Shown here piece after piece: positions 20,782-32,194 of a stretch of DNA of 32,194 nt; the stretch's first letter is position 1; the number at the start of each line of letters is the position of its first letter. This stretch comes from Gammaproteobacteria bacterium (GTDB lineage: Bacteria > Pseudomonadota > Gammaproteobacteria > Thiohalobacterales > Thiohalobacteraceae): positions 1-32,194 of the forward strand of contig JACREG010000007.1 in NCBI GenBank assembly GCA_016218375.1, given 5' to 3'. A model generated the notes under the pieces. That model worked only from the letters and a program-made list of their open reading frames with translations. It had not been told where the DNA came from and did not search any database. The translations under genes were made by a program, and so were the position numbers.

Positions 20782-21690
20782 CTAGTCCAACCATACATAG
20801 CGCACGATGAACCGGGCACTTTCCCGGAAACCATTCTCCACATGGCTGTCGGCACCGACTTCCAGTTGCAACTGGTGCCTGGGATTCAGATAACGGGCGG
20901 CGCCGATGCGGTAACGTCCCTGGTTCTTCGTATTCTGCTGGTCGATACCGTCGACCGACGTTTCGCCGCCCCAGTCGTGAAGATAAGACGCGGACACGCG
21001 GGTGGCCGGGTCGATCTGGTAGCGCAGGTGAATCTGCGCATTGACGAGAACACGCTGTTCGAGGCGGTGATCGCCGAGATACTCGTCGTTCGCGCTGTGC
21101 CCTACCACGTCACCGACCAGATCGAGCAAGAACTTTCCGGGCAACGGCATGATGACACCGCTATTGACGCCGATCTTCCAGCGGTTTTCACCCAGATTAA
21201 GCGACCTGTCCTTATCGTAGTTGCCCACGGGCACGGATAGATAGGGCGTGACGGCAAGATAGCGTTTCTCTTGGGGACGATTGCGCACCCAGAACACCGT
21301 GCCCACAATCGGATCGGCACACCCACGCGCCGTGCCGAGACCAGCGATATCGCTGCCGGCGCGGGTAACGCCGCAACTGGCGATGAAGCCCGGCGCCACG
21401 GTGCGGCCGCGGTATTCCAGATAGTGAAGAAACCGCATCTGTAGGCTATTGCTGTCCAGTGTCACATCGCCCGACAGTTTTTCGCCGTCGGCATAACGGG
21501 CATTGCGTTCGACATGCTGAACATAGAGTCCGAGTGCATTCTTCCCGGGCGCGCGTGCAGTGTAGATGCCGGGTTCGATATCGATGGCATAGGCCTCCGC
21601 GCGATACAGCAACAGCACACCCAGCAGGCGTAGCGCACGGAGGGTGTTACGCCCATGTCGATGTTCCGCTAGGCCCTCTCGGACAGCCAT
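20782..21690 (-). CDS. outer-membrane protein of the transporter/phenol MetA-pathway (Phenol_MetA_deg-like) family
   Basis: IDIEPGIYTARAPGKNALGLYVQHVERNARYADGEK...TPYLSVPVGNYDKDRSLNLGENRWKIGVNSGV...RFIVRYVWLD; start uncertain (ATG at 21690 overlaps the upstream gene's 3' end). Confidence 0.72.
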   Translation of the reverse strand: MAVREGLAEHRHGRNTLRALRLLGVLLLYRAEAYAIDIEPGIYTARAPGKNALGLYVQHVERNARYADGEKLSGDVTLDSNSLQMRFLHYLEYRGRTVAPGFIASCGVTRAGSDIAGLGTARGCADPIVGTVFWVRNRPQEKRYLAVTPYLSVPVGNYDKDRSLNLGENRWKIGVNSGVIMPLPGKFLLDLVGDVVGHSANDEYLGDHRLEQRVLVNAQIHLRYQIDPATRVSASYLHDWGGETSVDGIDQQNTKNQGRYRIGAARYLNPRHQLQLEVGADSHVENGFRESARFIVRYVWLD

Positions 21691-24539
21691 GCAAGAAATT
21701 CCTCTTCGGGCAACGGTCGGCAGAACAGGAAGCCCTGGAAGCCCTCGCATCCCAGCCCCAGCAGGATGTCGTGTTGTGCTGCGGATTCGACGCCTTCCGC
21801 AATGATCGCCAAGTGCATGTGCCGGCCGATCGCGATCATGGTTTCCACCAGGCTATGATCCTTGGATCGATCCAGCTCGCCAATAAACGTCTTGTCGATT
21901 TTGATCTGGTCCAGCGGCAGATCCTTGAGGTAGGCCAGCGAAGAATAGCCGGTGCCGAAATCGTCCAGCGACACATGCAGCCCGAGCGCGCGCAGTGTTT
22001 CCAATTTCCTGACCGTCCCTTCGAGATCGTACAGCAGCGCGGTCTCGGTCAGTTCCAGCATCAGCAAATCGGGATCGATCTGGTGCCGCGCAATGCACTC
22101 GCTCACCATCTGGACGAAATCCGGTCGGGCGAATTGCCAGGGGCAGACATTGATCGACAGGTGCCCGGAGAACGGCACGCCGGCCCGCAGCCACGCATTC
22201 AGTTGGCTGCACGCACGATCGAATACCCAACGGCCGATGGAATGGATCAAGCCGGTTTCTTCGGCAACGGGGATGAACGTGTCCGGCGGGATATCGCCCA
22301 ACTCCGGATGCCGCCAGCGCAGCAGCGCCTCGGCGCCGATCATCCGCCCGCCGGCATCGAGCTGCGGTTGAAAATACAAGGCCAGCTCGTCGTTGGCGAT
22401 CACCCGACGCAGTCCTTCCTCCAGTTGCAAGCGTGTGGCGGCCGCGGTCTGTAGACTGGGCACATAGAACTGAATGTTGCCGCGACCCAGGCCCTTCGCC
22501 CGGTACAAGGCCATCTCCGCATGGCGCAGGATGTCCAATTCGGACTCGCCGTTTGCAGGGAACAGCACCACGCCGATGCTGGCGCCGATGCTGAAGGCGC
22601 GCTCGCCCAGTAATATCGGGCTCGATAATTTATCCATGATCTTTTGCGCAAGCTCGTGCGCCACACGTTCCGCCGTCGGGATATCCACGGACCCCAACTC
22701 CATGAGCACCGCGAATTCGTCGCCGCCCGGCCGCGCCACCAGTGCGCGACCGCCGACGACCTCGTCCAGGCGGTGGCCGACCGCGCGCAGCACGTCATCG
22801 CCGACGTCGTGACTGAGTGCATCGTTGATGGTCTTGAAGTGATCCAGATCGATCAACAGCAGGGCACCGCAGGTTCTAGATCGACGCGCCTGCCCCAATA
22901 CCTCGGTAAGGCGTTCGTGCAACTGCGCGCGATTGGCCAGATCGGTCAGGTAATCGCGATATGCCATGCGCCGTATGTGCGCCTCGGCGCGCAGCCGCGC
23001 GAGTTCGGCACCCGCACGCGCGGCAAAGATTTCGAGAATCTCCCACACCTGTTCGATGTGCACAAGGGGTTTGCCGTCGAGCACCACGAGCAGTCCCAGC
23101 GGTTCGCCGCGGGCATCGAACAAGGGCGTACCGATATAACCTTCGGCGCCCATTTCGACGAGCAGGCGATCCTTCGGAAACAACTGCTGCACGCCGTGCG
23201 GATAGGCGCAGGTGCCCTGCCCCATGACCGTGGCGCAAGGCGTGTCCGCCAACGCGTAACTGATATTGGGGGCCGTCTGTCCGTGCGCCCAGACCGTCAG
23301 CGTGTCGATCCGTTGTGCATCTCGCCCGTCGACCGTGCCGATGAAGGCATAGTCGGCGTCGAACAATTGCGCCAGGCTCTGCACGAGCTGTTGGAAAAAA
23401 CGCTCGCCGGTCGCCGCCGAAACGCCGGCCGCGATCAGACGAATGGCATCCTCGACGCGCTTTTTCCCGGTCACATCCTCGTGCATCAGGATCACATCGC
23501 GGATACCTCCGACCTCGTCTTTGATCGGATAGATGTAGGCACGCACCCAACGGTCGCGAACCGGTCCGCGTACGACTGGATTGTCTGCCGGGTTGTATAT
23601 GATCGGTGGGAGCTCAACGGATTTTCCCGAGAAGGCCTCCTCGATATAAGGCATGACACCTTTATCCCGCAGTTGCCGGTCGTGCAGAATGTTGTAGTCG
23701 CCGAGACTGTCGGCACGCACGCCCCACAGCTTTTCCCAGGCCGCATTGACCTGCCGCGTCAACCCGGCCGGCGACAGCACCTGAATACTGAATGGGGATT
23801 GTTCCACCAGGGAACGGAAGCGGCGTTCGGAATCGCGCAGCCGTTGGCCGGTCTCATGGTCGAGCAAGGCACTCATGACAATGACCATGGCCAGAAAACC
23901 GAAAGGCCCCAACGGGACGAAGTCGATCATGGAGGCCCGGGCCAGAACGCCCTCGATGGCCGTCACTAGATACACTCCGACGGCAAGCAACATGGCCAGT
24001 ATCGTGCGCGCACGGTTGCGGCGGTAGATCACGCCCAGGGCATACAGCGCGAAGCCGATATTCGTCAGCACCAGTAGCGAGCCAATCCCGAACCCTGCGC
24101 CCGTTCTACCTACCGGGTGTGCGATCGTCTCGCCCCAGGGCAGGCGCAGCGCCTCCAGCCCGGACAATTCCGCGAACTGCAAGCTGTAGGGCTGGAACAG
24201 ATTGATCAGGAACAGTGCGGCAAACAGCATATTCGAAGCCACCAGCCAGCGCCGCGGACGCAGGCCGGTAAATTCCGCGATGAACCAGGGGAACAACATG
24301 AACGTCAGAACAATGAAAGAAATATTCCACTTCAGCGCCACGACAAACTCGACAAGGGTGGTGGCCCGATAGACCTGGACGTGCGACACCCCGAACAGGA
24401 CCGCTGTCAGGCACATGCCGGCGAACAACCGATGGGTGAGATTGCCCGGTCGATGCCAGGCAACGGAAAAATGCCTGACCGCGGCATAGGCACAGACGCC
24501 ACTCAATACCAACAGACTTGTGACAAAAGCACTGTCCAT
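21669..24539 (-). CDS. membrane 7TM-PAS-GAF-GGDEF-EAL protein (diguanylate cyclase/phosphodiesterase)
   Basis: N-terminal hydrophobic helices; PAS RFRSLVEQSPFSIQVLSPAG; GAF-like middle; GGDEF intact (ARPGGDEFAVLMELG); EAL intact (IGAEALLRWRHPELG) with DDFGTGYSSLAYLKDLPLDQIKIDKTFI. Confidence 0.94.
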   Translation of the reverse strand: MDSAFVTSLLVLSGVCAYAAVRHFSVAWHRPGNLTHRLFAGMCLTAVLFGVSHVQVYRATTLVEFVVALKWNISFIVLTFMLFPWFIAEFTGLRPRRWLVASNMLFAALFLINLFQPYSLQFAELSGLEALRLPWGETIAHPVGRTGAGFGIGSLLVLTNIGFALYALGVIYRRNRARTILAMLLAVGVYLVTAIEGVLARASMIDFVPLGPFGFLAMVIVMSALLDHETGQRLRDSERRFRSLVEQSPFSIQVLSPAGLTRQVNAAWEKLWGVRADSLGDYNILHDRQLRDKGVMPYIEEAFSGKSVELPPIIYNPADNPVVRGPVRDRWVRAYIYPIKDEVGGIRDVILMHEDVTGKKRVEDAIRLIAAGVSAATGERFFQQLVQSLAQLFDADYAFIGTVDGRDAQRIDTLTVWAHGQTAPNISYALADTPCATVMGQGTCAYPHGVQQLFPKDRLLVEMGAEGYIGTPLFDARGEPLGLLVVLDGKPLVHIEQVWEILEIFAARAGAELARLRAEAHIRRMAYRDYLTDLANRAQLHERLTEVLGQARRSRTCGALLLIDLDHFKTINDALSHDVGDDVLRAVGHRLDEVVGGRALVARPGGDEFAVLMELGSVDIPTAERVAHELAQKIMDKLSSPILLGERAFSIGASIGVVLFPANGESELDILRHAEMALYRAKGLGRGNIQFYVPSLQTAAATRLQLEEGLRRVIANDELALYFQPQLDAGGRMIGAEALLRWRHPELGDIPPDTFIPVAEETGLIHSIGRWVFDRACSQLNAWLRAGVPFSGHLSINVCPWQFARPDFVQMVSECIARHQIDPDLLMLELTETALLYDLEGTVRKLETLRALGLHVSLDDFGTGYSSLAYLKDLPLDQIKIDKTFIGELDRSKDHSLVETMIAIGRHMHLAIIAEGVESAAQHDILLGLGCEGFQGFLFCRPLPEEEFLAWLSERA

Positions 24540-24897: not shown

Positions 24898-25767
24898 TTA
24901 GCCGGCCTTCGCGAGCTCATCCCCCATGAGCTGTGCCACGAATTCTCCCAGCGGAAGATCCACGCGCTCGATGCCTTGGTCTTCCAGGAAGCGCCGTTCG
25001 TTGCGCGTGAGTTCCCCCGGGATTACCGCCCAGTGGCGACCCGACGAACGCTTCATGATCTGGCGCGCGAAGATGCGTTCGAGTTGGGTGGAAAAACGGC
25101 AGCCGAGAAACAGGAAATGCCGGTCGATGCGCAGTTGCTGCACCGCCTCCGGAATCGGTGTCTGAATGTCGATCTCAGTGAGCACCTCGACGAAATCGGA
25201 ATCCGACACCAGGAAATTCGCCGCCGGCGCGATCGAGCCGAGCGGCTGATACAGCAGCGTGGCTGCCGACGCGGGAATATCCTGGCGATCCATGTGATCC
25301 ATGCGCGCGCCATCGGTCGCAAACCAATGCACCCAGTTGCCGAAATGCTCGGCCTGGCTGACACCCTGCACCATGGCCCAATCGTCACCCCGCTCGTCGC
25401 TCGCCTGCAAGGCGCGCTGTGGCAGATCGTCGTACCAGGCATGCACCAGCAACGGCAGCGTCGGCAAGGTCGCGAGATAATCGTGCAGCACGGTCGGCGG
25501 CACGGCATGGCCGAACGCCTCGGTCATCGCCCGGCTCACTGTCTTGCGGTGTTTGAAGTTCTCGATGAACTGCGCTGCAGCGGTGAGATTGTTGCGGATC
25601 TTGCCCGGCACGCTCGCCTTCGCGGTAAGCCGTCCGACCAGCGCCAACGGTGTGGCCGGCACAGGACACTCGGCACCGGCCAGTTCGAGCACGCCCGCGC
25701 CGAGATACGGGATGGCACGGCCGGCGTGCAAGGCCGCGCGGATTTCTTCAATGATGTGTGTCGACAT
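24898..25767 (-). CDS. SIR2-like domain protein
   Basis: ALHAGRAIPYLGAGVLELAG N-terminal SIR2-type NAD-binding motif; HFLFLGCRFSTQLERIFARQIM...RHWAVIPGELTRNERRFLEDQGIERVDLP C-terminus. Confidence 0.75.
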   Translation of the reverse strand: MSTHIIEEIRAALHAGRAIPYLGAGVLELAGAECPVPATPLALVGRLTAKASVPGKIRNNLTAAAQFIENFKHRKTVSRAMTEAFGHAVPPTVLHDYLATLPTLPLLVHAWYDDLPQRALQASDERGDDWAMVQGVSQAEHFGNWVHWFATDGARMDHMDRQDIPASAATLLYQPLGSIAPAANFLVSDSDFVEVLTEIDIQTPIPEAVQQLRIDRHFLFLGCRFSTQLERIFARQIMKRSSGRHWAVIPGELTRNERRFLEDQGIERVDLPLGEFVAQLMGDELAKAG

Positions 25768-25791: not shown

Positions 25792-26958
25792 TCACAAATA
25801 AATCGCCGCGCCCGCGCCCACGTTAATGGAAGCGTCCTTGGCGGTCTGCACGATGAAGCTCACCTGGTCTTCGCCGAGATGCGCATGAAACGGCAGCACC
25901 AGCGCGCGGTCGGCGATCTTCTCCGTCACCGGGAATTGTCCGCGGCGATAACCCTGATCGATATGCTTGCGATCCAGGTAATGGCGTTGTTGATGCAAAG
26001 GCTGGCAATACGCGGCGGCCTCCACGCCTGCGGTATGCAGATCGCTCACGATGGCGCCGCGACTGCTCTTGGAGAAACGCGTGCCCAGATGCACCAGGTA
26101 CAGGAACCAATGCACCTCGTCGACCTCGGGCGCGATATAGGGCGGCTTGATACCCTCGAAGCTGAGGATATGATCGGCGTAATACTGTTCGACGCGTTTG
26201 CGCCGCGTGAGCATCTGCGGCAGGCGCTGCAATTGCTGCATGCCCAGGGCGGCACTGAGTTCGCTCATGCCGGCCTGCCAGGGTACATGCGCGCTAACGC
26301 TGACCGAGAAGCGCTCGTCGAGACGCCGGTTGCGCAGCGCGCGCAGGCGCAATGCCACATCGGCATCGTCGGTCACGACCATGCCGCCCTCGCCGCAGCA
26401 CAGCGCGCTCGGCTGAGAAAAATCGAACACCGCGCAATCGCCGAAGCTACCCACCAACTGGCCTTGATAGCGCGAACCCAACGCCTCGGTGGAATCCTCC
26501 AGCAACAACAGCCCGTGTTGCGCCGCGAATGCGCGCAGCGGTCCCCAGGCCGCGGGATGACCGGCGACGTTGCCGGCCAGCACGGCGCGCGTGCGCGGCG
26601 TAAGTTTGTCGGCGAGTTTTTCCGCATTGAGACAACCCGACCAGTAGTCGATATCGCTGAACACCGGCGTCGCGCCCGCAAGGCCGATGGCCTGCGCGAT
26701 CTGATGCCAGCCGAAGGGCGAACAGATGACTTCGTCGCCCGTGCCGATGCCCTGCGCCTGCAACGCCAGCAACAAACCCAAGGTGCCGCTCGCCACCGCC
26801 ACCGCATGGCGACGCCCCAGATAGCCGGCGAAGGCCGCCTCGAACTGTTCCACCCGCGGCCCCTGCGACAGGCGCGGCGAACTCAGCACCGCCTCCACCG
26901 CCGCGAGTTCCGCGGCGCTGATATCGGGATCGGACAACAGGATGGAATACTCGGTCAT
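25792..26958 (-). CDS. DegT/DnrJ/EryC1/StrS-family aminotransferase-fold protein (PLP lysine apparently absent)
   Basis: LSSPRLSQGPRVEQFEAAFAGYLGRRHAVAVASGTLGLLLAL; LLLLEDSTEALGSRYQG; FDFSQPSALCCGEGGMVVTDD; MSELSAALGMQQLQRL. Confidence 0.9.
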   Translation of the reverse strand: MTEYSILLSDPDISAAELAAVEAVLSSPRLSQGPRVEQFEAAFAGYLGRRHAVAVASGTLGLLLALQAQGIGTGDEVICSPFGWHQIAQAIGLAGATPVFSDIDYWSGCLNAEKLADKLTPRTRAVLAGNVAGHPAAWGPLRAFAAQHGLLLLEDSTEALGSRYQGQLVGSFGDCAVFDFSQPSALCCGEGGMVVTDDADVALRLRALRNRRLDERFSVSVSAHVPWQAGMSELSAALGMQQLQRLPQMLTRRKRVEQYYADHILSFEGIKPPYIAPEVDEVHWFLYLVHLGTRFSKSSRGAIVSDLHTAGVEAAAYCQPLHQQRHYLDRKHIDQGYRRGQFPVTEKIADRALVLPFHAHLGEDQVSFIVQTAKDASINVGAGAAIYL

Positions 26959-26959
26959 G

Positions 26960-27166
26960 TCAGTCGTTCAATCGCCGCGCTTCCACCGTGATCGGCAGCT
27001 TCGTGTCGGCGCTCAGGTCCGGGAGTTCCAGCCGCCAGCCGTTGGCGAGCGTGACCGTGCCGCCCCACAGGTCGGGCTTCTCCATCGCGACGATGGGCTC
27101 CTCCAGATCCTTCTTCGGCACATAGGCCGACAGGCCGGTCTCGGATCGGCGGATCATTACTTTCAT
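26960..27166 (-). CDS. nifT: nitrogen fixation protein NifT/FixU
   Basis: 68 aa; MKVMIRRSETGLSAYVPKKDLEEPIVAMEKPDLWGGTVTLANGWRLELP. Confidence 0.88.
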   Translation of the reverse strand: MKVMIRRSETGLSAYVPKKDLEEPIVAMEKPDLWGGTVTLANGWRLELPDLSADTKLPITVEARRLND

Positions 27167-27212: not shown

Positions 27213-27352
27213 CCGTCATTGCAAGCGCGGATTTCGTAGCCCGGATGCAGGCGCACAGCGCCGGAATCTTGGATGTTGCGATAACCTGGATTGCGCTTCG
27301 CTCCATCCAGGCTACAGGCTTAGAGATTGCTTCGCTGCGCTCGCAATGACGG
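27213..27352. repeat. nested inverted repeat: outer CCGTCATTGCAAGCGC/GCGCTCGCAATGACGG, inner GTAGCCCGGATG/CATCCAGGCTAC (copy C)
   Basis: Outer arms 27213-27228 and 27337-27352 (15/16 complementary); inner arms at 27236 and 27304-27315 resemble copies A and B. Confidence 0.75.
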
Positions 27353-28499
27353 TATTCGCCGCCTGCGCGACACGCTGGACGATACCGGGCAACACGTCCA
27401 GCACATACTCGATATCCGCCGCCGTGGTGTCGCGGCCCAGCGAGAAGCGGATACAGGCGAGCGCTTCGTCGCGCGTCAGCCCCATCTCCAGCAACACATG
27501 CGAAGGCAGTTGACTACCCGCAGTGCAGGCGGCGCCGCTGGAGGCGTAGACCGCAACGCTTTCCAGTTTGTGCAGCAGCGCCTCGGCGGGCAGCGTGCCG
27601 AAACAGATGTTGCTGGTGTTCGGCAGACGCGGCGCTCGCGCACCCACGACACGCGCGAACGGCACGCGCGCTAGAACGCCTTGTTCCAAGCGGTCGCGCA
27701 GCGCCGTCATTGCACCCAATCCATGCGCCAGTTCCGCGTGCGCCAATGCGCAGGCCACGCCGAGGCCCACGCAGCCCGGCAGATTCTCAGTGCCGCCGCG
27801 CCGCTGGCGTTCCTGATGACCGAACAGCAGCGCCGGCAGCTTCAACGGCTTGCGCACGAACAACGCGCCGGTGCCCGGCGGGCCGTGCAGCTTGTGTCCG
27901 GACAACGACAGAAAATCCACCGGCACCTGCGTCAGATCGATTGGGTGTTTGCCCGCCGCCTGTACCGCGTCGGTGTGGAACAACGCACTGTGCGCCTGCG
28001 CGATGCGCGCCGCCGCCTCGATGGGAAAGCGCACGCCGGTCTCGTTGTTGGCCCACATCAGACTCACCAGGGCGGTATCGGCATCGACGCTGTGCGCCAG
28101 GCGTTCGAGATCCAGTTCGCCGGACGCACTCACCGGCAAATAGCTCACGCGCACGCCATGGCTTTCCAGATGGCGGAACAACAGCAGTTGCGCGGGATGC
28201 TCCACGGCGCTGGTGACGATGCGATTGCGCCCCGGACGCAATGCCAGCGCGCCCAGCACCGCTGTGTGATTGGCCTCGGTGCCGCCGGAGGTAAAGACGA
28301 TTTCCGCCGGTGCGGCGTTGAGCAGCCGCGCCACCTGCGCGCGCGCCGCGCTCAAGCGCTGCCGCGCCGCATCGCCCAAGGCGTGTTTGCTGGAGGGATT
28401 GGCGTAACTTTCCGCGAGACAGGCGCACAGCGCCTGCACCGCGGCCGGCGCGGGCCGGGTGGATGCATTGTTATCCAGATATACGCCGGCCATTGTCAT
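27312..28499 (-). CDS. nifS: NifS cysteine desulfurase
   Basis: MAGVYLDNNASTRPAP; SGHKLHGPPGTGALF (PLP Lys); SSGAACTAGSQLPSHVLLEMGL (catalytic Cys); ATG at 28499 overlaps upstream TGA. Confidence 0.92.
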   Translation of the reverse strand: MTMAGVYLDNNASTRPAPAAVQALCACLAESYANPSSKHALGDAARQRLSAARAQVARLLNAAPAEIVFTSGGTEANHTAVLGALALRPGRNRIVTSAVEHPAQLLLFRHLESHGVRVSYLPVSASGELDLERLAHSVDADTALVSLMWANNETGVRFPIEAAARIAQAHSALFHTDAVQAAGKHPIDLTQVPVDFLSLSGHKLHGPPGTGALFVRKPLKLPALLFGHQERQRRGGTENLPGCVGLGVACALAHAELAHGLGAMTALRDRLEQGVLARVPFARVVGARAPRLPNTSNICFGTLPAEALLHKLESVAVYASSGAACTAGSQLPSHVLLEMGLTRDEALACIRFSLGRDTTAADIEYVLDVLPGIVQRVAQAANTVIASAAKQSLSL

Positions 28500-28861
28500 C
28501 GCCAGAACAACCGTTGTGGATCTTCGTTCAGCCGCTGCAACACCGCGGTCAGACTGGTGTACTCGCCTTCCGCCACCCATTGGTCGCGGAGGTGATCCTT
28601 GCGGTACAACCGCCAGGCACTGCATGGGTCGAGATATTCCAGCCGCGCGATGTCGATGACCCCGCCGCTTTGATCGACATTGCGCGAACAGCACGGGCTT
28701 TCGATCCGATAACCGTCCGCCGCCTTGCGTACATAAGGCGAGACGTAGCGGTAACGCTGCCGCTGCGCGAGCGCGCGTTCGATGCGCTTGCGGTCCACGT
28801 CGTTCGGATGCGGACTGACGCCGCGCTCTGCCTCCGACCATGGGTTCATGGCACTGTTCAT
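28496..28861 (-). CDS. DUF3024-like, nif-associated small protein
   Basis: HPNDVDRKRIERALAQRQRYRYVSPYVRKAADGYRIESPCCSRNVDQSGGVIDIARLEYL; start uncertain (ATG 28861 or 28873). Confidence 0.65.
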   Translation of the reverse strand: MNSAMNPWSEAERGVSPHPNDVDRKRIERALAQRQRYRYVSPYVRKAADGYRIESPCCSRNVDQSGGVIDIARLEYLDPCSAWRLYRKDHLRDQWVAEGEYTSLTAVLQRLNEDPQRLFWR

Positions 28862-28880
28862 TCGCTCGCCCATCGCCCGA

Positions 28881-29120
28881 CTATCGCGGCGCAATCTCGT
28901 CTTCCAGGCAACCCACGACATGGCCGGTCTGAAACTCCACCATATAAACGGGAAGCTTCGATTCCACATGCGTACCGATCTGCACGATCTCGCCCGGCGT
29001 GCCGGTTTCCACCAGCAGGGCCTGTTCCGCGTGCTCCGGATAGCTGCCGTCATTGAGCAGATCGATACAGGCCTGCACCGGCTGTCCCCACTGGTATTTT
29101 GGTTCGCGCGGCTCGATCAC
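28881..29120 (-). CDS. NifZ-like protein (divergent)
   Basis: PKYQWGQPVQACIDLLNDGSYPEHAEQALLVETGTPGEIVQIGTHVESKLPVYMVEFQTGHVVGCLEDEI. Confidence 0.72.
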   Translation of the reverse strand: MIEPREPKYQWGQPVQACIDLLNDGSYPEHAEQALLVETGTPGEIVQIGTHVESKLPVYMVEFQTGHVVGCLEDEIAPR

Positions 29121-29438: not shown

Positions 29439-30215
29439 TCAAAGCTCCTCTACCGTCGGCAAACTATCCGCCGTGGACAAACGCTCGGCGACCTTGGCCC
29501 GCACCAGCGGATCGGGATCGTCGCGCAGATCTTCGAGTTGCGTGGCGTCGAGCCTATTGCACAGTTCGTAGCGCACGCGCCAGTCGGCATCCTTCATCAG
29601 CCACGGCAGTTGCGCGGTGGACAGACGCTTCGTCACCTCGATGCGCACGCGCGAGTCCACATCCGCCGCCAGCGGCATCAACCACTCGCTGGCGATGCGC
29701 CGCGCCACCACCCGCCGCACCTCCGCCTCGGGATCGTGCAGCATGAGCGGCAACAGCGATGCGCTGATACGCCCGGCCACGATCTGGCGCACGTAATAAT
29801 CCGCATCGTGCACCATCAGTAACAGATCGGTGCCTTCCAAGCGCGCGGCCACGCGGATACGCACTTCGCGATGCGGATCGGTGCGCAACCGCAGCAGATA
29901 GCGCTGCGGTAGACGCGCGGCGGCGTTCCAGCGCACCGTCTCGTCCGGATCGGCGAGCAGCCGCGGCAAACGGAAGATGTCGGCGTATCGGGCCGCGACC
30001 GCGCGCAGCTCGAAATGCGCGTGGCCGAGATAATCGTTGGCCAGCCGGGGATTCCAGGCGAAGAAGCGGTCGATGCGCCGCGCATAACGGTCCAACACGC
30101 AGGCGCGTTGCAGGGCGCAGCGTCCGGTGGCCGCCAAGGCGCGATGCGCGCAGTGCGCGCAGTCGATCTCGTTGCCCTGCCAGTCTCTGGCCTCGTCGAT
30201 GTCAGTCGTCGTCAT
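29439..30215 (-). CDS. 4Fe4S-binding leucine-rich-repeat-variant (LRV) protein
   Basis: N-terminal Cys cluster DCAHCAHRALAATGRCALQRACVLD; repeated DPDETVRWNAAARLP / DPHREVRIRVAARL / DPEAEVRRVVARRI / DVDSRVRIEVTKRL units. Confidence 0.85.
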   Translation of the reverse strand: MTTTDIDEARDWQGNEIDCAHCAHRALAATGRCALQRACVLDRYARRIDRFFAWNPRLANDYLGHAHFELRAVAARYADIFRLPRLLADPDETVRWNAAARLPQRYLLRLRTDPHREVRIRVAARLEGTDLLLMVHDADYYVRQIVAGRISASLLPLMLHDPEAEVRRVVARRIASEWLMPLAADVDSRVRIEVTKRLSTAQLPWLMKDADWRVRYELCNRLDATQLEDLRDDPDPLVRAKVAERLSTADSLPTVEEL

Positions 30216-30257: not shown

Positions 30258-30626
30258 TCAGTGCTTGCGCGTGATGCTGCCGATCTCGACCGTGGCCAAC
30301 CCTGGCGCGCCGGCACTGCTGCTGCACCCGCAGGCCGAACCGCCCGGCTGATGAAACACCAAACCCGTTTGCGTGGGCGTGTCGGTGAAATCCACCGTCG
30401 CGCCTTCCAACAACACGCGGCTCTCGGCCGGCAGGAATAATTTCATGCCGTTCCATTCCACCACGGCGTCGCCGGCGAACGGCGCACTTTCCACGCTGAA
30501 CTCGGCGCTCAAACCGGAGCAACCGCCCGGCGATACCACCAGACGGAAACCGTGGTCCATGCCGCCGCCGAAACGCAGCATGCGGCGGATGAATGTCTCG
30601 GCGGCGGGCGCGATCACAATATTCAT
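30258..30626 (-). CDS. HesB/IscA-type iron-sulfur assembly protein
   Basis: MNIVIAPAAETFIRRML...GFRLVVSPGGCSGLSAEFSVES...GSACGCSSS conserved Cys residues; ATG at 30626. Confidence 0.87.
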   Translation of the reverse strand: MNIVIAPAAETFIRRMLRFGGGMDHGFRLVVSPGGCSGLSAEFSVESAPFAGDAVVEWNGMKLFLPAESRVLLEGATVDFTDTPTQTGLVFHQPGGSACGCSSSAGAPGLATVEIGSITRKH

Positions 30627-30634
30627 GACATCTC

Positions 30635-30853
30635 CTAGGCGACGTAGCGCGGCACGCTGGTATCGATGACGCAGGTGTTGTCCACCGGACACACCGCCAC
30701 GCACTGCGGATCGTCGAAGTAGCCGAGGCACTCGGTACACTTCTCCGGCTTGATGATGAACGTGCCGTTCTTCTCGCGGATGGCGTTGTTCGGGCATTCC
30801 GGTTCGCACGCCGAGCACGCGGTGCACTGCGATGCGATGATTTTATAGGCCAT
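30635..30853 (-). CDS. fdxN: 2[4Fe-4S] ferredoxin, nif-associated (FdxN-like)
   Basis: [16 protein letters not shown] and [23 protein letters not shown] motifs; directly downstream of nifB. Confidence 0.87.
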
Positions 30854-30936: not shown

Positions 30937-32194
30937 TCACGCCGCCGTATACGCACCTGTGTATGCCCCTTGGCGGATCTGCGCGTCGCCGCGCTCCACA
31001 TGGATGATCTCGCCGCGCTTGACCTTGTCCAGGTATTCCTTGAAATAGCCGAGCACCGATTGCTCGATGAACTCATGCGCGTAGCGGTCCACCGGATCGA
31101 TACCGGCCGCTTGCAGTTCGGCGCGCGGACAGCCGCCGACCTTGGCGACAAACACCGCCACGCAGTCGTTGATGGCGCGGATCACCGTCGGCAAGGTGTC
31201 TTCCTCGCCATAACCGCCCTGGCAATACAGATCGACGCGACGATGGCCGACGAAGGTGCAGCCGCCGGTGCCTACCTCGTAGATCTGGAACTCGGTGGCA
31301 TGACCGAAGTGTTCGTTGATCTTGCCGCCGCCGGTGGTGGCGACCGCGATCAGCACCTTGATAACGGAGTGTTCGCTGGCAAGACTCGACAGTTCTTCCT
31401 GCTTGGCGGCCACTTGCTGTTCGCGTTCCTGTTCGACCAACGACTGGTAGGCCTTGCGCACCGTCGGGTCGTAGTCGATGTCCATCGCCATCACCTTCTC
31501 GGTGGTGAATTCCGCCGAACGGTCCTCGCCCAGCAGGCCGACGGCGTCGGCGCGGCATTGGCGGCAATGGCGCATCATGTTCATCTCGCCGGAGCAACTG
31601 TCCTGCAAGGCCTTCAACTCCTGCGCGCTCGGGCCGCGCTGGCCGTTCAGGCCGAACACCGTGCCGTGCTCGGGCGCGGAGATCAGCGGCATGATGTTGT
31701 GCAGGAAGGCGCCGCGGCTTTTGACGGCCTTGTTCACCTCGACCAAATGCCGATCGTTGATGCCCGGGATCATCACCGAATTGACCTTGCACAGAATGCC
31801 GCGCTCGGTGAGCATCTCCAGCCCGCGCAATTGATGTTCGCTGAGAATCTCGGCGGCGGCGCGACCGGTGATGCGCTTGTGCTTGTAGAAGATCCAGGGA
31901 TAGATCTGCGCACCGATGTCCGGATCGACCATGTTGATGGTGATGGTCACGTGATCGACATTGAAGCGTTGGATCGTGTCGACATGCTCCGGCAAGGCCA
32001 GGCCGTTGGTCGACAGGCACAGCTTGATGTCCGGCGCCTGCTGCGAGATCAGCTCGAAGGTTTTGAAGGTCTTCTCGGGATTGGCCAGCGGATCGCCGGG
32101 GCCGGCGATGCCGAGCACGGTCATCTGTGGAATGGCCGAGGCCACGGCCAGCACCTTCTTCGCCGCTTGTTCGGGCGTGAGGCGTTCGCTGACC
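30937..32194 (-). CDS. nifB: nitrogenase cofactor biosynthesis protein NifB (N-terminus outside window) with C-terminal NifX/NafY-like domain
   Basis: [59 protein letters not shown]-terminal [28 protein letters not shown]; open frame continues to window end. Confidence 0.95.

Follow-up and report, generated by a model that had tools for sequence, protein, structure and literature searches.

The closest described relatives of the protein presented here are GDP-perosamine synthase, ArnB and PseC, which carry a catalytic lysine. DegT-fold enzymes in which a His replaces this lysine are the dehydratases ColD and RfbH/E1, both of which use PMP. In another subfamily of fold-type I, serine palmitoyltransferase has a subunit without the Lys (LCB1/SPTLC1) that is non-catalytic and forms a heterodimer with an active paralogue in lipid synthesis. 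Lys-less DegT-fold proteins (ColD, and RfbH with His) and Lys-less fold-type I subunits (SPTLC1) are therefore already known. Our protein resembles LCB1/SPTLC1 in being a fold-type I PLP-family protein minus the Lys, and LCB1/SPTLC1 differs from it in subfamily, in its role in lipid synthesis and in its pairing with an active paralogue. The neighboring gene also has described counterparts, since SIR2-like genes are found in the nif clusters of R. capsulatus (Rcc03262), Z. mobilis (ZMO1821) and P. stutzeri (PST_1325). The reports on these genes do not mention a DegT and assign no function to the SIR2-like protein. In R. capsulatus, the nif-cluster SIR2 family protein was detected only in NifA-bearing strains (PMC6925177).

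We analyzed a stretch of 32,194 nucleotides (C73:1-32194, the window). An initial annotation had placed a DegT/DnrJ-fold protein that had lost its PLP-anchoring lysine in a nif cluster of this window, and this location was borne out by an operon running from nifB to a SIR2-like gene. In their order along the minus strand its genes are:

30937..32154, minus strand: nifB, N-terminus lost at the contig end (TIGR01290, 527 bits, cut-off 344)
30258..30827, minus strand: IscA/SufA-like Fe-S assembly accessory protein (TIGR00049, 60.2 bits, cut-off 58.8)
29439..30215, minus strand: 4Fe4S leucine-rich-repeat-variant protein, LRV_FeS (PF05484, 92 bits)
28496..29053, minus strand: DUF3024 protein, a conserved operon member (PF11225; conserved neighborhood)
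27312..28493, minus strand: core of a NifS-type cysteine desulfurase, the ORF extending upstream (TIGR03402, 456 bits, below the 531-bit cut-off)
26960..27166, minus strand: nifT, directly upstream of the DegT gene (TIGR02934, 111 bits, cut-off 41)
25792..26958, minus strand: DegT/DnrJ/EryC1/StrS-fold protein without the lysine, 388 aa (ORF, ATG start), here called the Lys-less DegT
24898..25767, minus strand: SIR2-like protein (SIR2_2), 289 aa, 24 bp downstream of the Lys-less DegT (PF13289, 67.8 bits)

The nifH and nifK genes of the same genome sit on other contigs. Sites for sigma-54 (TGGCACG-N4-TTGC) and NifA (TGT-N10-ACA) showed no excess over chance in the window, and the nifB promoter is likely to be located past the end of the contig. 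Between 27170 and 27420 on the minus strand, the last part of the NifS ORF and the sequence separating it from nifT resemble a dispersed repeat (RHCERSEAISKPVAWMERSAI, VIASAAKQSLSL); a repeat insertion may therefore have changed the C-terminus of NifS. A large GGDEF-EAL protein (c-di-GMP turnover; 21669-24539, minus strand) is encoded downstream of the nif genes, and GGDEF-type matches also occur within ~6 kb of the Lys-less DegT at loci L015, L023, L024 and L026.

Apart from the lysine, the DegT fold is well preserved, as had been noted from the letters. PF01041 (DegT_DnrJ_EryC1) matched nearly the whole length of the protein with 305 bits (cut-off 19.8), and an AlphaFold model built from 30 family sequences reached a mean pLDDT of 82 and a pTM of 0.85. 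Foldseek returned GDP-perosamine synthase (3dr4/3bn1; TM 0.82, E 7e-34) as the best structures, and ArnB was also among the best matches, giving a TM of ~0.8 for the shared fold. Profile and type I fold both place the protein in the DegT/DnrJ/EryC1/StrS family. It shares ~30% identity, the pyridine-N Asp, the stacking aromatic residue and the GEGG segment with GDP-perosamine synthase, ArnB and PseC. Unlike these enzymes, it lacks the Lys and the NYR motif, carries Asp instead of Ser, and possesses an extra conserved C-terminal tail and a nif operon context. Around the lysine position the minus-strand translation reads CAVFDFSQPSALCCGEGGMVVTDD. In a gap-free alignment Ser184 falls on the catalytic Lys of GDP-perosamine synthase 3bn1/3dr7 (CATFSFFGNKIITTGEGGM vs CAVFDFSQPSALCCGEGGM), and PDB entry 3dr4, titled as the K186A mutant of this enzyme, has Ala at the same position.

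Scanning 84,980 species genomes gave 48 loci of the Lys-less DegT family (55-88% identity), and whole-genome searches gave additional members. The member set used for residue comparison comprises 59 proteins from alpha-, beta- and gamma-proteobacteria; distant DegTs from archaea and Planctomycetota served as outgroup, their use being restricted to Lys-bearing controls. The codons compared are:

26407..26409, minus strand: Ser184 (agc), position of the PLP internal-aldimine Lys (alignment; Lys in 0/59 members vs 10/10 of the outgroup)
26422..26424, minus strand: Asp179, invariant Asp replacing the PLP-phosphate Ser (Asp in 59/59; outgroup Ser 8, Ala 2, Asp 1)
26494..26496, minus strand: Asp155, kept Asp that contacts PLP N1 in active relatives (59/59; equivalent to Asp170 of Spr1654, PMC5936713)
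26395..26400, minus strand: Cys187-Cys188, a pair not conserved in the family (C187 in 8/59, C188 in 51/59)

The lysine column holds Gly in 35 members, Ser in 19, Ala in two and Cys, Leu or Gln in one each, whereas Lys occupies the site in all ten outgroup DegTs that could be aligned there. The alignment of nif-linked homologues that the initial annotation had proposed thus extends the loss of Lys to the whole clade, and a sequencing error or strain mutation at Ser184 was rejected, the relatives being likewise Lys-free. His was found at this position in none of the 59 members. The family therefore resembles ColD and RfbH/E1 as a natural DegT-fold protein without Lys and differs from them in never having the His base, which led us to reject a PMP dehydratase of that type. 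The PDB entries 2gms and 3bb8, which we take to be these dehydratases, were matched by the Lys-less DegT.

In the active relative Spr1654, the PLP phosphate is bound by Ser194 and Thr59, Asp170 contacts the ring nitrogen and an aromatic side chain stacks on the ring (PMC5936713). Counting from the Lys, we transferred these sites to residues 179, 59, 155 and 84 of the Lys-less DegT. Residue 59 is Thr in 48/59 members, residue 84 is W, F or Y in all 59, and Glu190 persists. In the GxNYR segment, Asn228 is replaced by Gln and Arg230 mostly by Gly or Ala; family-wide, Q, G, R, A or H occupies the Asn site and mostly G, A or C the Arg site, whereas all 10 of the outgroup proteins have N and R there. 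In DegT enzymes this Asn and Arg are presumably contributed by the partner subunit. Of the features of a functional DegT/StrS aminotransferase, the family has the Asp for the pyridine N and an aromatic residue for stacking, and the Lys, the phosphate Ser and the GxNYR Asn and Arg are missing clade-wide. Judged by these residues, normal transamination is very unlikely, in agreement with the initial annotation, and the sequence-database label 'aminotransferase' is almost certainly wrong as to activity; RefSeq-derived plasmid annotation lists these genes as 'DegT/DnrJ/EryC1/StrS family aminotransferase'. The accompanying idea that the two adjacent cysteines might bind metal or FeS is not supported by the comparison: few members have the first Cys, and the Azospirillum lineage has Thr in place of the second (position 188).

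The pocket appears remodelled, not erased. Because Asp155, the aromatic residue 84, Glu190 and mostly Thr59 are kept, the Lys-less DegT may still bind a ligand resembling the cofactor. PDB entries titled as K186A, K188A and K185A mutants of close relatives contain PLP or a ligand according to their descriptions; loss of the Lys alone therefore does not abolish binding. The protein might accordingly act as a sensor whose non-covalently bound ligand is PLP, PMP or a nucleotide sugar and whose output is the SIR2-like protein. However, the phosphate Ser is now an invariant Asp and the NYR Asn and Arg are lost, changes that should weaken the binding of a phosphate cofactor, and we regard such a sensor as unlikely. 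The replacement of the phosphate Ser makes the PLP sensing put forward in the initial annotation less likely, but Asp155, the stacking aromatic and Glu190, all kept, still leave room for it. The same pocket contains, in or near the old active site, three invariant acids (Asp155, Glu158 and Asp179) together with N130 and H134 (58/59), residues that could point to a different enzyme performing non-PLP chemistry, e.g. acid-base or metal chemistry at the three acids. Yet the residue at position 184 (G, S, A, C, L or Q) is no conserved nucleophile, C188 is not shared by all members and the protein has no metal motif, making a different enzyme quite unlikely.

In a maximum-likelihood tree, the 59 members formed one clade with a support of 100/100 and a long stem (1.58). 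Lys-bearing DegTs, including the nearest in the tree (L009 and L082), fell outside this clade, a topology that fits a single loss of the Lys. Because some branches are long, the branching order within the clade is unsure. Compared to its nearest homologue (L010, 88% identical), the Lys-less DegT gene had a dN/dS of 0.13 and is therefore under purifying selection. Two copies are split over two frames, one in a Breoghania MAG (L057 5800-7130) and one on a Bradyrhizobium plasmid (L115 7595-9002). Such broken copies would suit a sugar aminotransferase that was captured in the nif region and is now decaying, but the dN/dS, the ~80 invariant columns among 30 members and the conservation of the position across alpha-, beta- and gamma-proteobacteria contradict decay for the family as a whole. 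We find this explanation scarcely credible and reject a pseudogene at the family level. Paraburkholderia sprentiae (L113 8973-11489) has an intact Lys-less DegT flanked by short NifS and SIR2 ORFs.

The Lys-less DegT is tied to nitrogen fixation by genome co-occurrence as well as by linkage to nif genes, and is confined almost entirely to nif clusters. Among the sampled genomes of the class, nifB was present in 8/8 genomes with the Lys-less DegT at a base rate of 32/369 (hypergeometric p ~1e-9, uncorrected for kinship), and in a phylum-wide sample all four further carriers have nifB. In one genome (G222) the two genes are on separate contigs. The nearest Lys-bearing homologues, G038 (40% identity) and G183, lie outside the clade and their genomes lack nifB, which argues against the scenario, considered in the initial annotation, of a strain-specific mutation with close homologues in non-nif contexts retaining the Lys. 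The fixation of the family in diazotrophs agrees with the proposal of the initial annotation that the protein may have been repurposed for nitrogen fixation. Since the gene is absent from 24 of the 32 nifB genomes (~3/4 of the sample), it is not essential to nitrogen fixation generally. Within the genus of the window genome, the Lys-less DegT was found in neither G001 nor G002, and G002 also yielded no nifB, so that the nif cluster may be unevenly distributed in this genus.

At the 48 loci from the genome collection, many of which have contigs or flanks too short to show every neighbor, same-strand SIR2-like genes were found at 46, NifS at 36, LRV at 33 and NifB at 32. The gene order varies: in Methylocystis the SIR2-like gene lies upstream of the Lys-less DegT, unlike the usual order, and on a Methylococcus plasmid the complete operon extends from nifA to SIR2 and BolA, a 2Fe-2S protein being encoded between the Lys-less DegT and SIR2. 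In Methylococcus sp. EFPC2 (L114 9164-9496), the latter two are separated by a 2Fe-2S ferredoxin-like gene and a small hypothetical gene, with BolA following. The frequent presence of NifS, which is encoded two genes upstream in the window, and of a Lys-bearing DegT elsewhere in the window genome (L002) would allow the Lys-less DegT to be the regulatory subunit of one of these catalytic PLP partners, by analogy with LCB1/SPTLC1. We strongly doubt this, since NifS, an aminotransferase class V protein, comes from a different PLP family, with which mixed dimers are unlikely, and since no NifS was seen at several loci with complete flanks, e.g. L029, L032 and L033.

The initial annotation had overlooked that the adjoining SIR2-like protein is equally degenerate. 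Its model (pLDDT 87.6) found its best fold matches in the SIR2 NADases ThsA (Thoeris) and DSR2. In ThsA, N112 and H152 are both needed for NADase activity (PMC7272460). Residue comparison placed the following codons at these sites:

25435..25437, minus strand: Trp111, position of the catalytic Asn112 of ThsA
25240..25242, minus strand: Leu176, position of His152 of ThsA

Unlike ThsA and DSR2, the SIR2-like protein thus has Trp for the NAD-cleaving Asn and lacks the His that is mostly replaced among its relatives, so that the window protein possesses neither catalytic residue of a SIR2 NADase. A role in defense was rejected, as the PADLOC match to ThsA is weak (E 2e-5) and the NADase residues are lost. 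SIR2-like proteins were encoded in 26/369 genomes of the class, and all 26 have nifB. These nif-linked proteins (24898-25767 on the minus strand, L087-L112) split into a WYD and an INRD subclass. In the former, WYD replaces TNYD of ThsA (Asn112), Trp111 is invariant in A2 and the His is mostly replaced, Methylocystis-type copies excepted; the latter keeps the Asn and has Met at the position of His152. The Lys-less DegT was present in 8/10 genomes with the WYD type and in 0/16 with the INRD type (Fisher p 3e-5, uncorrected for kinship).

Both proteins contain a near-invariant segment of low model confidence. In the Lys-less DegT this is the C-terminal tail, a candidate interaction motif:

25795..25839, minus strand: near-invariant C-terminal tail (KDASINVGAGAAIYL; low confidence in the monomer model)

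Block 381-388 of this tail has a conservation of 0.90 and a pLDDT of 45 in the monomer model, and the family pattern is TxKDASxNVGAGAAIYL. The SIR2-like protein carries the invariant loop SDxDYVEVLTEIDIQTPIP (loop residues 186-206), with block 191-200 at a conservation of 0.94 and a pLDDT of 50 in the monomer model. Conserved segments that are poorly modelled in a monomer often become ordered on partner binding, and the two segments may be partner-binding sites. Against this counts that homodimer formation could account for both segments as well, the DegT tail simply completing the homodimer.

Taking the evidence together, we lean towards the reading that the Lys-less DegT is a pseudo-aminotransferase whose sugar-aminotransferase fold gave up PLP chemistry in a single event at the root of the clade and was retained in the nif operon as an accessory protein without catalytic function. 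The structural role mentioned in the initial annotation, or one as a scaffold, may apply and comes close to this. We infer that the protein would form the usual DegT dimer, that its remodelled acidic pocket would no longer hold PLP normally, and that it would have a ligand and work with the SIR2-like protein in a physical complex, perhaps via the DegT tail and the invariant SIR2-like loop. Such a pair would act post-translationally, helping to assemble, protect or regulate nitrogenase or its Fe-S supply, a role other than making a sugar or an amino acid. More speculatively, and with considerable doubt, the PLP-less aminotransferase fold and the NAD-noncleaving SIR2 fold might constitute a two-part pseudoenzyme module that, in many proteobacteria, either regulates nitrogenase in a ligand-gated manner or assists its assembly, a control layer so far undescribed.

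In open-access PMC full text, an incomplete sample of the literature, we found nothing relevant on DegT in nif clusters and no Lys-less, His-less DegT clade in nif operons beside an inactive SIR2; papers on the P. phymatum nif transcriptome do not mention the gene. With catalytic residues lost throughout a clade that is fixed in nif operons next to another degenerate enzyme, the Lys-less DegT points to a nitrogenase accessory factor that has escaped study; it is probably a nitrogenase helper that has gone unrecognised, not an enzyme. We think that, together with the SIR2-like protein, it is an accessory factor for either assembly, protection or regulation. Such a factor could be relevant to the transfer of nitrogenase to new hosts.
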